Virus record (IMG/VR): IMGVR_UViG_3300035698_009601 | Coordinates: 1-20,500 of that record | Source of the DNA: a virus | Direction: 5' to 3' (one strand) | Length of the DNA: 20,500 nt | Shown: positions 3,645 to 19,482 of the stretch, piece after piece | How the letters are laid out: the number at the start of each line of letters is the position of its first letter | Position numbering within the stretch: position 1 is the first letter of the stretch | Program-made: the position numbers and the translations under genes | Notes under the pieces: generated by a model | The model's database searches: none | What the model saw: only the letters and a program-made list of their open reading frames with translations | What the model was told of the DNA's origin: nothing

Positions 3645-4765
3645 TAAAGCCCCTTTGCTTTCATATATTTAGCTCTGCGTTGCTCTTTTGTCATGCCGCT
3701 GAAGGTTTTACTTCTGGCTTTTTTAGTGCCGATTGATTTATCAAAGTCCTTGCTTATACTATCAAAGGTAGGAAGGGTCCCGCCCCACCCGGAAATGGTC
3801 CCGTTTTCATCAAAATACTTTATCGCCGATTCCTTCGCTTTAGCCGCGCCCTCCATCGCATTTTGCAGAGCAACAAGCCTTTTAGAATTTGCGGCTTCGC
3901 TTAGTCTGGGGTTGTACGCTCTAGCAATAAGCGCCTCGCCCTCCCTCTCGGAAAACGACCCGCCTAGAACGGCCTTAAGATCCCTTTGCACTACGCTCTC
4001 GACTTTCTCCTGCGCATTCACGGAGGGTTCATTAAATAAACCCCTCATAATTTTGGGCGTGTAGCCAGCAATGCCGCCAGTGAGGTTTTTATGCGCCCCC
4101 GGTGATTCATTTGTCACTGCATCAAGGTCGCCGACTACGCCGGATATTTGCTGTACTTGCTTGTGCGCGTCAGCCCCGCCGCCTGTGGTGTACGGGATAT
4201 AAACATCTTCAATAAACTTTTCATTTAGCTTTTTCTCTACGGCTAACTTTGCCCCACTTTCTTGTTTTTTCATATCAAGGGCGTTCTGGTATTGCATTTT
4301 GTCGCCGACATTAGTTATTTCAGGAGGAGAGATTTGATTGGTATTGAACCCGCCCGGCGCTTGAGGCTGTTGCTGCGGTGCTTGGGGCTGTTGCTGCGGA
4401 ATCCCCGGAGGCTGGCCTTGTGGGGCACCCTGCTCTGGCTGCGCGCCCAATAGATCAAAATATGATTGGTTTGTGACGCGGTTTCCGTATTGGTCAACGC
4501 TAACCTTGGCTTGGTTCTGCGCGTCTTTCCATTTCATAGCGTTGGCCTGCTCTGGCGTAGGCTGTCCGCCGGAAGCTAGGGTCATAAACCCGGTTTCTGC
4601 CAATATTTCAGGATCGTTTGCCAGTTGCTCTTTTTTGTTCTTCATTTCTCTCTGGCGCTGATATGACTCAATGCCCTTAGAAATGCTGTCAAAAACAGAT
4701 TGTTGCTCGTCTTGCTTAAGCTTGGCGCTCTGCATAAAGCTATCATTGTTTAATTGAAAAGCCAT
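3644..4765 (-). CDS. Putative internal virion/DNA ejection protein, P/Q-rich (gp20 position)
   Basis: The protein has 373 residues. Residues 1-60 are a charged helical segment. Residues 108-138 are extremely Pro/Gln-rich and include the heptad QQQPQAP twice in tandem (124-130, 131-137), encoded by a near-perfect 21-bp DNA repeat. Residues 175-320 are predicted helical, with a conserved-looking core VQRDLKAVLGGSFSEREGEA followed by IARAYNP and a KESAIKYFDENGT stretch, which I recognise from minor structural proteins of podoviruses with this gene order. It lies between the S74-domain protein and the large gp16-like protein, the place of P22 gp20. Its start ATG overlaps the previous gene's stop by one base. 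No enzyme motif is seen. Likely part of the set ejected ahead of the DNA, inferred from position and composition. Confidence 0.6.
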   Translation of the reverse strand: MAFQLNNDSFMQSAKLKQDEQQSVFDSISKGIESYQRQREMKNKKEQLANDPEILAETGFMTLASGGQPTPEQANAMKWKDAQNQAKVSVDQYGNRVTNQSYFDLLGAQPEQGAPQGQPPGIPQQQPQAPQQQPQAPGGFNTNQISPPEITNVGDKMQYQNALDMKKQESGAKLAVEKKLNEKFIEDVYIPYTTGGGADAHKQVQQISGVVGDLDAVTNESPGAHKNLTGGIAGYTPKIMRGLFNEPSVNAQEKVESVVQRDLKAVLGGSFSEREGEALIARAYNPRLSEAANSKRLVALQNAMEGAAKAKESAIKYFDENGTISGWGGTLPTFDSISKDFDKSIGTKKARSKTFSGMTKEQRRAKYMKAKGL

Positions 4766-16055: not shown

Positions 16056-16955
16056 TTAATTGGCCAACGATGGCCTAACCTCGATGTCGTATTTCTTCCC
16101 GAAAGTTTTTTCTATGCCAATCATGAACTCGCTCCTGATTTTCTCGGCTTGGAATCGCCTTGGAACGTAAAGCTTCTCGCCGTTGAGCTTTGCGCCGCTA
16201 AACCAGCTTTTGATGTTGTGCTCCCCGACATGCAGCGCTAAGGCGTGTTTCCAATCGGGCCAGTCCTCCGGGTCTTCCTGCACAATCACGGTTAATTCAT
16301 CGAAGTAACGCTTGCCGTGCAGCCATGTTGCCGGGTGGGGAATAAATTCCTTTTCTGTTTTCCGCATTTCTGCTCGGTGGGCTTTCATGGCCTCCACCAG
16401 ACCCTCATGGCTCATCACCCCAAGCGCTATCAAATATTTCTCCTCCGCTTTGCCCTTCCCGACCTTCTTCGGACATGCCTTCCAAAACTCTTCAAATTCT
16501 TTTTTGTTTATTTTTTTCTTTCTTTTATAACTGTTAACTGTTAACTGTTGACTAGCTGAGGGTAAGTCGTTGTTTTGGTTAGTTTCCGGCTCATTCTCAG
16601 GCTGTTTTCGGCGCGTTTTCGGCGTGTTTTCAGTTAGTTTTCGGGTGTTTTTCGCCGCGTTTTTGCGTCTATTCTTTGCGTTCTCGACCTCTTCAAGCGC
16701 TCTTTTTTGGTAGATTTTCCCGTCCAATACGGTAATAAAACCCCCTGGTATTAACTCATCTTTTACAGATTTTAGTTTTCTGACCGAGCAATTGCATAAA
16801 TTTGAGAGCCACCTGTCATCGTCGTTAATCGCTTCGTTTCTTGACCACATGGCCGAAACCATTTGTATATAAATTCCTCGTTGCTCTGGGGTGAGGCACT
16901 GAGTATCGAGCAGCCAGTCTTTTGCGTAAAAATCTACCCGGAAAATATCACTCAT
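16056..16955 (-). CDS. DUF1376 replication initiator/helicase-loader-like protein with DnaA domain I-like C-terminus
   Basis: The protein has 299 residues in four parts. Residues 5-90 are a DUF1376 (YdaU-type) domain: FYAKDWLLDTQCLTPEQRGIY, DDRWLSNLCNCS, GFITVLDGKIYQKRA. Residues 95-150 are a Lys/Asn/Glu/Gln linker. Residues 153-220 carry EFWKACPKKVGKGKAEEKY and PHPATWLHGKRYFDE, usual in phage replication proteins. Residues 232-295 (DWKHALALHVGEHNIKSWF, LYVPRRFQAEKIRSEF) match the spacing of DnaA domain I, the DnaB-contacting part of DnaA. Likely role: bind the origin and recruit the host helicase, like lambda O. The linker-coding DNA holds phased repeats (see separate entries). It overlaps the HNH gene by 4 nt (ATGA). 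DUF1376 is solid; the DnaA-I call is pattern-based. Confidence 0.75.
   Translation of the reverse strand: MSDIFRVDFYAKDWLLDTQCLTPEQRGIYIQMVSAMWSRNEAINDDDRWLSNLCNCSVRKLKSVKDELIPGGFITVLDGKIYQKRALEEVENAKNRRKNAAKNTRKLTENTPKTRRKQPENEPETNQNNDLPSASQQLTVNSYKRKKKINKKEFEEFWKACPKKVGKGKAEEKYLIALGVMSHEGLVEAMKAHRAEMRKTEKEFIPHPATWLHGKRYFDELTVIVQEDPEDWPDWKHALALHVGEHNIKSWFSGAKLNGEKLYVPRRFQAEKIRSEFMIGIEKTFGKKYDIEVRPSLAN
16491..16530. other. Pyrimidine-rich AT tract, candidate DNA-unwinding element
   Basis: Almost pure T with a few C on the plus strand (runs of 6 and 7 T, then TTCTTTCTTTTATAA), the most AT-rich stretch in the replication gene. It codes for the Lys-rich KRKKKINKK segment of the protein. Adjacent to two sets of short repeats, it has the place an AT-rich unwinding element takes beside iterons in lambda-type origins. 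Confidence 0.4.
16528..16548. repeat. Triplicated 7-bp tandem repeat TAACTGT
   Basis: Three exact tandem copies of TAACTGT (16528-16534, 16535-16541, 16542-16548) followed by a degenerate fourth (TGACTAG). The unit length is not a multiple of three, so protein repetition does not explain it. It joins the AT tract to the 11-bp repeat block inside the replication gene. Confidence 0.75.
16582..16669. repeat. 11-bp phased repeats (iteron-like) inside the replication gene; putative origin
   Basis: Eight units start every 11 bp at 16582, 16593, 16604, 16615, 16626, 16637, 16648 and 16659. The clearest are GTTTTCGGCGC (16604), GTTTTCGGCGT (16615), GTTTTCAGTTA (16626) and GTTTTCGGGTG (16637); the outer ones are degenerate (GTTTCCGGCTC, TTTTTCGCCGC, GTTTTTGCGTC). 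The period is close to one helical turn and is not a multiple of three, so the repeat is kept at DNA level. In lambda, iterons bound by O lie inside the O gene beside an AT-rich tract; the same layout is seen here. Origin function is inferred. Confidence 0.6.
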
Positions 16956-17431
16956 GACCGCCCTGCCCAGACTTGCAGCGTCTTGCCGCCCTTAGAGGCG
17001 TTGCAGGGGGCGCAGCTCACGGCCAGATTTTCAAAGCTTGTCGCACCGCCGAGCCTGACGGGGTAAACATGGTCTATGTGAAACTTCTCGTTTTCTTCGC
17101 CGCAATAAACGCACTGGTATCCGTCCCTATAAAATACCTTATTCTTAAGATGTTTTGGTAGGTTCGGTCTTTTTTGATTCCGCCTTAGTTCTTGCCTCTC
17201 AATATATGCGCTAACCTCCGCGATTATACACTCTTTGCTGGCGAGCCATCTTTTTAGGGGCATTCTTGCAATCGTGGATAGGGCTTTATCTTCCAGCGGA
17301 AGCCCCCCGACCCCCGCCTGATAGTGTGCAATGATGAGCATGGTAAACGCGCCTATCTCTGTGCCGTCCATTTGCATGACCCCGCCGAGGAAGTCCCCTA
17401 TGTGCCATTGTATGTGTGTGATGTTAGTCAT
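16952..17431 (-). CDS. DUF1376-HNH endonuclease fusion
   Basis: The protein has 159 residues. Residues 6-65 are a DUF1376-like domain (IQWHIGDFLGGVMQMDGTEIGAF, LEDKALSTIARMPLKRW), shorter than usual. Residues 92-150 are an HNH nuclease: FYRDGYQCVYC with C107 and C110, FHIDHVYP with the D120-H121 core, N135 (SFENLAVSC), and the zinc pair C140/C143 with CNASK closing the fold (an H-N-N variant). All metal and catalytic positions are present. The fusion could tie a nicking or cutting activity to the replication complex, or be a homing-type HNH gene captured by a DUF1376 gene. It starts at ATG 17431 with GGGGG upstream, overlaps the DUF559 gene by 8 nt and the replication gene by 4 nt. Domain calls are good; the role is open. 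Confidence 0.75.
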   Translation of the reverse strand: MTNITHIQWHIGDFLGGVMQMDGTEIGAFTMLIIAHYQAGVGGLPLEDKALSTIARMPLKRWLASKECIIAEVSAYIERQELRRNQKRPNLPKHLKNKVFYRDGYQCVYCGEENEKFHIDHVYPVRLGGATSFENLAVSCAPCNASKGGKTLQVWAGRS

Positions 17432-17885
17432 TATCGTAAAGCCCCCTTAATCTATCATCTATATATTGCGCGACCTGCTCCGGTATCCTATCACCATGCT
17501 TGTATATCTCGCTACCTGTAAATCGCAAAGTGTTAAACCCAAAGCCCTTAAAGTATAAATCTCGCTCCCGGTCTTTCTTTTTGTGGTTTTCTGATGTGTG
17601 GAATTGCTGTCCGTCACACTCTATAATTATTTTAGATTCTGCATTTGGGGGCCATATTTTTTGAGAATCCTTAAACCCCACACAGTGGATATAAAAATCG
17701 GCTCGGTAAGGGCCAAATTCCCATTGCGGATAAACAAAGTTCCCCACACCCTCGGCCTCCCCTTCCTCAACAATAATAAAATCACTAGACCGCGTAAAAT
17801 ACTTCATCATTAAATCTTCTATGGGGCTTTCCACTGATCCTGTTATAGCCCCGGCTGTCTTCATATATTCTGTTAATGGCCTCAT
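17424..17885 (-). CDS. DUF559-type nuclease (Vsr/PD-(D/E)XK-like fold)
   Basis: The protein has 153 residues. It shows the DUF559 pattern: ESPIEDLMMKYF (E19, E23), QWEFGPYRADFYI with D63, the strand KIIIECDGQQFH with E89 and D91, then KKKDRERDLYFKGFGFNTLRF and the closing TGSEIY. These are the acidic metal-binding positions of the Vsr/PD-(D/E)XK-like family, where the 'R-x-x-Y/L-x-x-G-F/Y-x-x-L-R-F' segment is characteristic. Such proteins act on DNA, but the substrate (mismatch, branched or foreign DNA) differs between members and is unknown here. Start ATG 17885 is one base into the stop of the upstream 59-residue gene (TAATG) with an AGGAGG-type site. It lies two genes from a DNA methyltransferase. 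Confidence 0.75.
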   Translation of the reverse strand: MRPLTEYMKTAGAITGSVESPIEDLMMKYFTRSSDFIIVEEGEAEGVGNFVYPQWEFGPYRADFYIHCVGFKDSQKIWPPNAESKIIIECDGQQFHTSENHKKKDRERDLYFKGFGFNTLRFTGSEIYKHGDRIPEQVAQYIDDRLRGLYDND

Positions 17886-19392: not shown

Positions 19393-19482
19393 CTACGCTT
19401 CCCGTAAACCGCCCTGTTTAGTAATTGTTTCGTCAAAGAAAACTGGTATAGCGCCGTTTTCGGTGCCCACAAATACAATCAT
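19393..19482 (-). CDS. Short ORF (29 aa) coupled to the Cro-like gene
   Basis: A 29-codon frame (MIVFVGTENGAIPVFFDET, then ITKQGGLREA) whose ATG overlaps the stop of the Cro-like gene as ATGA, a typical translational-coupling arrangement. It has no family resemblance that I can name. The sequence looks protein-like (an alternating hydrophobic start and an acidic loop), but the length is too small to be sure it is kept as a gene. Confidence 0.4.
   Translation of the reverse strand: MIVFVGTENGAIPVFFDETITKQGGLREA

Follow-up and report, generated by a model that had tools for sequence, protein, structure and literature searches.

The feature described here is very probably a theta-type phage origin of replication, one that resides inside of the gene for its own initiator, in the DNA encoding the linker, as in phage lambda O and RepA_N plasmids, and whose iterons would be bound by the initiator's DUF1376 winged helix. 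The window, i.e., the whole stretch of DNA analysed, is a 20.5-kb viral contig (20,500 bases; IMG/VR record IMGVR_UViG_3300035698_009601, positions 1-20,500), on which Pfam recognises P22-like portal and terminase genes. A first-pass annotation of this same DNA had read the region as a candidate origin, and both synonymous shuffles and homologues favour that reading. The arrangement, furthermore, seems to be a recurrent one, of which the feature is a single instance. Coordinates are collected in Table 1.

Table 1. The initiator gene, its domains, and the repeats and AT-rich DNA found within it (positions are those of the window)
Feature	Position	Strand	Basis
Initiator gene, 299 aa	16056..16955	-	Pfam, PHROG, AF2 model
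DUF1376 domain, residues 9-91, predicted winged helix, proposed iteron-binding domain	16683..16931	-	Pfam, AF2
Conserved C-domain, residues 154-220, common to relatives	16296..16496	-	Family alignment
Possible DnaA domain I-like tail, residues 232-284	16104..16262	-	Pfam DnaA_N, below cut-off
Eight 11-bp-phased units, best form GTTTTCGGCGC (GCGCCGAAAAC on coding strand)	16582..16669	+	11-bp reading, TRF, shuffles
Ninth, partial array unit	16571-16581	+	
Best two adjacent array units, GTTTTCGGCGC / GTTTTCGGCGT	16604..16625	+	
Three exact tandem TAACTGT units (ACAGTTA on coding strand)	16528..16548	+	Sequence reading, TRF
AT-rich tract, candidate DNA unwinding element	16484..16543	+	Stability scan

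The initiator gene and its protein

The initiator consists of a winged-helix DUF1376 domain, a disordered linker, an FW..P.K/HPATWL C-domain, and a possible DnaA domain I-like tail. Its Pfam match to DUF1376 (PF07120) is at 3.7e-13, i.e., 50.1 bits versus a gathering score of 30.1, and its PHROG matches are to PHROG 9327, primosomal protein (1e-36), and to PHROG 270, replication initiation protein (1e-24). An AlphaFold2 (AF2) model, as built on 16 family members, confidently predicts a winged helix followed by a long helix over residues of about 10-110 (pLDDT about 88-97 over residues 11-100), with residues 121-146 disordered and with the C-domain found at 151-213. Upon comparison of residues of about 7-90 with structures using VIA-align, the plasmid Rep initiators 5kbj/4pql give a Z of 8.2 and DnaD gives 7.3-7.7, scores which nonetheless are tied with those of CRP and other winged helices, so that what is seen is a generic winged helix. 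Foldseek returned no significant match among solved structures. The tail scores 21.4 bits against Pfam DnaA_N, under the gathering cut-off of 24.6, and had no match when searched by sequence against the PDB; its resemblance to DnaA domain I may be viewed as suggestive only. Nor was any helicase gene recognised on this 20.5-kb fragment.

Directly upstream of the initiator, and overlapping the initiator's start by 4 bp, is a minus-strand gene (16952-17431) whose product has a DUF1376 N-terminal part and, fused to this, an HNH endonuclease domain (Pfam, PHROG); it is as though the N-domain of an initiator had been duplicated and then joined to a nuclease. The replication operon includes as well, at 17424-17885 on the minus strand, a gene for a DUF559/MTES_1575-type restriction-endonuclease-like protein (Pfam).

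Repeats within the linker-coding DNA

When the plus strand is read in 11-bp steps from position 16571, the array runs TGTTTTGGTTA, GTTTCCGGCTC, ATTCTCAGGCT, GTTTTCGGCGC, GTTTTCGGCGT, GTTTTCAGTTA, GTTTTCGGGTG, TTTTTCGCCGC, GTTTTTGCGTC, with two of these units, those at 16593 and 16659, being weak. Within the initiator, it corresponds to residues of about 96-125. The first-pass annotation had placed eight units exactly 11 bp apart, starting from 16582 through 16659, had placed three tandem TAACTGT units nearby, and had located these repeats where a DUF1376 gene encodes the linker. The coordinates of the former are correct, both by 11-bp reading and by TRF, which recovers the same 16582-16669 array with periods of 11 and 22. 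The TAACTGT units are indeed present, and exact, and Pfam along with the AF2 model confirms the linker location.

It had been claimed in addition that selection on the protein is insufficient to explain these repeats, with comparison of their periodicity with shuffled-codon controls offered as a check. That check was run, and the claim stands: The 11-bp lag in the linker is matched by 0 of 2000 codon-order shuffles, by 0 of 500 dinucleotide shuffles, and by 0.9-1.9% of synonymous-codon shuffles (null mean 39.8 versus 48 observed), and none of 200 synonymous shuffles, of which the best scores 17, attains the array's chained-site score of 18. Synonymous shuffles, that is, only rarely reach the observed values, reproducing the array in 0-2% of cases. 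As they do retain part of the signal, this signal is partly carried by the protein sequence, which is as expected if a DNA repeat has shaped the linker. That retained part might be viewed instead as favouring the repeats being a by-product of selection on linker composition, which is Lys/Asn/Thr/Pro-rich. Such an explanation is scarcely credible, however, given the failure of any of the 2000 linker codon-order shuffles to match, and given that linker-confined shuffles across the family still pick out 11 and 22 bp (below).

A-tract phasing in the array is the strongest of the window and is equalled by 2% of synonymous shuffles. The plain motif GTTTTCGGCGC, allowing for 2 mismatches, is seen 11 times over the whole window versus 8.25 expected, which is no enrichment; the signal, that is, is one of phasing. 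A lone copy of an array unit with one mismatch, GTTTTCGGTGC, is found at 19456-19466 on the plus strand, outside of the initiator gene and between ORFs, possibly by chance. No DnaA-box cluster was found in the window. TRF reports as well a 21-bp tandem repeat within a structural gene (window positions 4355-4399), which, its length being divisible by three, requires no explanation beyond an ordinary protein repeat (PQQQPQA).

Starting about 40-50 nt after the array, downstream as considered on the coding strand, is the AT-rich tract, which codes for the initiator's linker/C-domain junction. The T-rich tract that had been proposed for 16491-16530 is borne out: at 87.5% AT, these are both the most AT-rich and the least stable 40 bp in all 20,500 bases. 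The TAACTGT units, coding for residues 136-143, are the counterpart of the 6-7-bp arrays which in homologues precede the C-domain. A GC-skew turning point had been suggested as a further check on the origin, and none was seen at the array. GC skew is here uninformative, as the contig is only a fragment and its genes are almost all on one strand.

Recurrence among distant relatives

Single-protein and HNH-neighbour searches of viral contigs yielded no relative of the window's initiator with more than about 30% overall identity. Distant relatives, of about 18-28% protein identity, therefore were reached by alignment, and it is in these rather than in the window's own lineage that conservation of the repeats was assessed. 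Phages possessing a related terminase (63-75% identity) had no relative of the initiator within the stretches examined, and the replication module thus seems to move independently. The relatives considered come from viral contigs (80 loci) and from bacterial genomes (another 80). Several of the statistics were chosen after the first homologues had been seen; the genome set and linker-confined shuffles were run later, with the lag either preset at 11 or set against every other lag.

Within the linker DNA of the viral-contig set are arrays at 11-bp spacing of diverse sequence (CGTTCAAC, GTGCAC, GTCCGCA, AAGCACC, GCTAGC). Commonly, these give way, immediately ahead of the C-domain, to short tandem arrays, e.g., GATACA, AAAGAT, or TAACCA. 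By a lag-11 test, 19 of 29 sequence clusters from this set are at p<0.05, versus a chance-level 4.8% of 207 other ORFs from the same loci, and for the second set, from named bacterial genomes, 23 of 65 are at p<=0.005. Identical 6-mer pairs occur 11 bp apart at 1.15 per gene among 94 independent relatives versus 0.18 among 435 control ORFs, which is about a six-fold difference, and occur 22 bp apart at 1.11 versus 0.20 per gene, with lesser peaks at lags of 10, 23, 7, and 14. Lags of 7 and 14 bp are raised in the family also, both with pooled 6-mers and with linker-confined shuffles. Given codon shuffles that are confined to the linkers of 72 genes, it is lag 11 which leads (39% with p<=0.01), followed by lag 22 (29%). 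A finder allowing for inverted copies has 57 of 99 genes exceeding all 20 of their shuffles, with some arrays alternating in orientation at 11-12 bp. Roughly half of family members have no array by the criteria used, and some of these may have other spacings.

The AT-rich DNA recurs too. In 81% of 37 genes, the DNA from array to C-domain is richer in AT than is the gene on average (Wilcoxon 3.7e-6), and in 73% of those 37 the gene's most AT-rich 30 bp, to within one base, lie between array and C-domain. Across relatives, the repeats are of different sequence but recur in their spacing and position, as does an AT-rich stretch before the C-domain. The first-pass annotation had suggested just such an inspection of homologues, and the 11-bp DNA spacing and position indeed are kept as both linker protein and repeat sequence vary. 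Its description may be refined in that family arrays often mix direct and inverted copies and in that the AT-rich side often possesses its own 6-7-bp tandem array. In three relatives (L089, L090, L093) the N-domain coding region also carries an 11-bp-phased array, with a motif shared with the linker array, suggesting two-part origins.

Constraint and exchange

Among nine related phage sequences, synonymous differences are 0.098 for the repeat codons versus 0.31 for the N-domain and 0.28 for the C-domain, with the linker's amino acids varying. There is, that is, nucleotide-level constraint on the repeats, seen as about 3-fold less synonymous change and applying to that clade rather than to the window's lineage.

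Exchange is seen among prophages of E. coli. Rac ydaU and a gene of UC4316 are 95% identical over N-domain and repeats, and diverge at the array's end. Downstream of this shared part, UC4316 has a DnaT-type domain and a lambda-P gene, and Rac has another C-domain and ydaV, which encodes an ATP-binding protein. In other E. coli strains the C-domain is that of Rac, and ydaV is likewise there, but the N-domain is unrelated and the repeats, GTAACGCT, are not those of Rac. From these recombinants, the N-domain thus travels with the repeats, and the C-domain with the loader. They are stronger evidence of exchange than is a word-sharing score for the iterons, which at 0.078 for the same N-domain versus 0.028 for the same C-domain agrees in direction but is too coarse for reliance. 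In E. coli 10159, ydaU ends immediately past the repeats, next to an IS3-family element, and in E. coli O139:H1 W13-16 the C-terminal part of ydaU alone is left.

These observations bear on whether the repeats might be functionless, i.e., products of replication slippage within a disordered, unconstrained linker. The linker is in fact predicted by AF2 to be disordered, and the copy number of some of the 6-bp arrays varies among relatives, as slippage would yield. Nevertheless, 11 bp is no multiple of three and yet is the leading spacing across unrelated repeats, with inverted copies in phase; other ORFs are without arrays; and the repeat codons are low in synonymous divergence, with repeats swapping along with N-domains. 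Slippage is thus a very improbable account.

Proposed mechanism

As to binding, melting, helicase recruitment, and origin activity, we infer the following. The DUF1376 winged helix would bind the 11-bp-phased units side by side, along one DNA face, with phased A-tracts curving the array's DNA and thereby aiding this binding. The assembled complex then could strain and melt the adjacent TAACTGT/AT-rich tract. The C-domain, as the proposed recruiter of a helicase or of a helicase loader, would next bring in the replicative helicase or its loader.

Repeats bound by initiators often autoregulate too. The repeats considered here might, accordingly to that known habit, bind the initiator or instead another regulator so as to autoregulate the replication operon, with no origin involved, and it is the case that the 6-mer enrichment and low synonymous change are indicative of conserved sites resembling those bound by proteins rather than of replication. 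Against this, the array is found several hundred bp inside of the gene, beside the window's least stable DNA, in a layout equal to that of lambda ori, and an AT-rich tract beside the array recurs in the family. Autoregulation in lieu of an origin is therefore improbable, and an origin within the initiator gene is the reading preferred here.

Wider meaning

More broadly, there probably exists a large, unrecognised class of phage and prophage origins in which unrelated N-domains, DUF1376 and others, each have their own helical-turn iterons in the linker, with the whole being exchanged as one cassette, with DUF1376 serving as an iteron-binding domain, and with oriJ lying inside ydaU. If so, then DUF1376, a domain of unknown function, gains a concrete and testable role, and sequence by itself would suffice to predict the origins of many phages and prophages, with a candidate site provided for the Rac origin of E. 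coli K-12, which has long been known. As binding domain and sites are both in one stretch of one gene, they may be swapped together, easing change in replication specificity, and such swapping is suggested as a simple phage route to new specificities. A literature search, limited in coverage so that earlier description is possible, found no descriptions of such arrays, and DUF1376 was absent from the titles and abstracts of papers mentioning it.

Comparison with known systems

Rac ydaU, located at 1421119-1421976 of NC_000913.3, resembles the window in having a DUF1376 N-domain, TGTTCAAAC/TGTTTGAAC linker repeats, and then AAAGATACAGATAAAGAT. It differs in its C-domain and in its repeats being fewer and less regular; lag 11 is borderline (p about 0.06), and the chain finder does not rise above shuffles. 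The Rac prophage possesses an active origin, oriJ (PMC3945230), which we predict to be the ydaU array. For mycobacteriophages, a lambda-like origin has been proposed as lying just upstream of or within repA, with no repeats reported for the regions examined (PMC7157519). The RepA-like gene of Gordonia phage CheeseTouch shares the window's C-domain and has an 11-bp-phased array, but with its strongest array near the N-terminal coding part.

The first-pass annotation had likened the region to the lambda O gene, a likeness which is valid: A blind finder, as applied to lambda O as a positive control, yields the annotated iterons (score 15 versus at most 9 for shuffles), and the most AT-rich 40 bp of O begin 2 nt after the array, with the window's AT tract being equivalently placed. 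In both cases the origin, known or candidate, is within the initiator gene, in the linker-coding part between N-terminal DNA-binding and C-terminal recruiting domains, and in both cases the iterons precede the 40 bp of the gene that are richest in AT, with the coding strand there being A-rich. Lambda, however, has four 18-bp iterons 20-24 bp apart whereas the window has about eight 11-bp units one turn apart and, unlike with O, the N-domain is DUF1376 and the C-domain is unrelated. Neither Pfam nor PHROGs indicates homology to lambda O, with no O-like family among the matches.

The RepA_N plasmid initiators, which share the window's ori-inside-rep arrangement, may be viewed as an equally close analogue. 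With pSK41 Rep, the ori is central within rep and has four boxes to which an N-terminal winged helix binds; the central part of the protein, which the ori encodes, is a linker that can be dispensed with, and A+T tracts within the boxes matter; and N-domain and ori are exchangeable together, as with the known chimera pPR9 (PMC5703833). The window differs in Pfam family and in its phage context, with the fold of its N-domain no closer to RepA_N than to unrelated winged helices, and no RepA_N domain was found by Pfam in the initiator, for which DUF1376 and a weak DnaA_N were the sole matches. As profiles thus indicate homology with neither lambda O nor RepA_N, the initiator would seem to work like both and to belong to neither.
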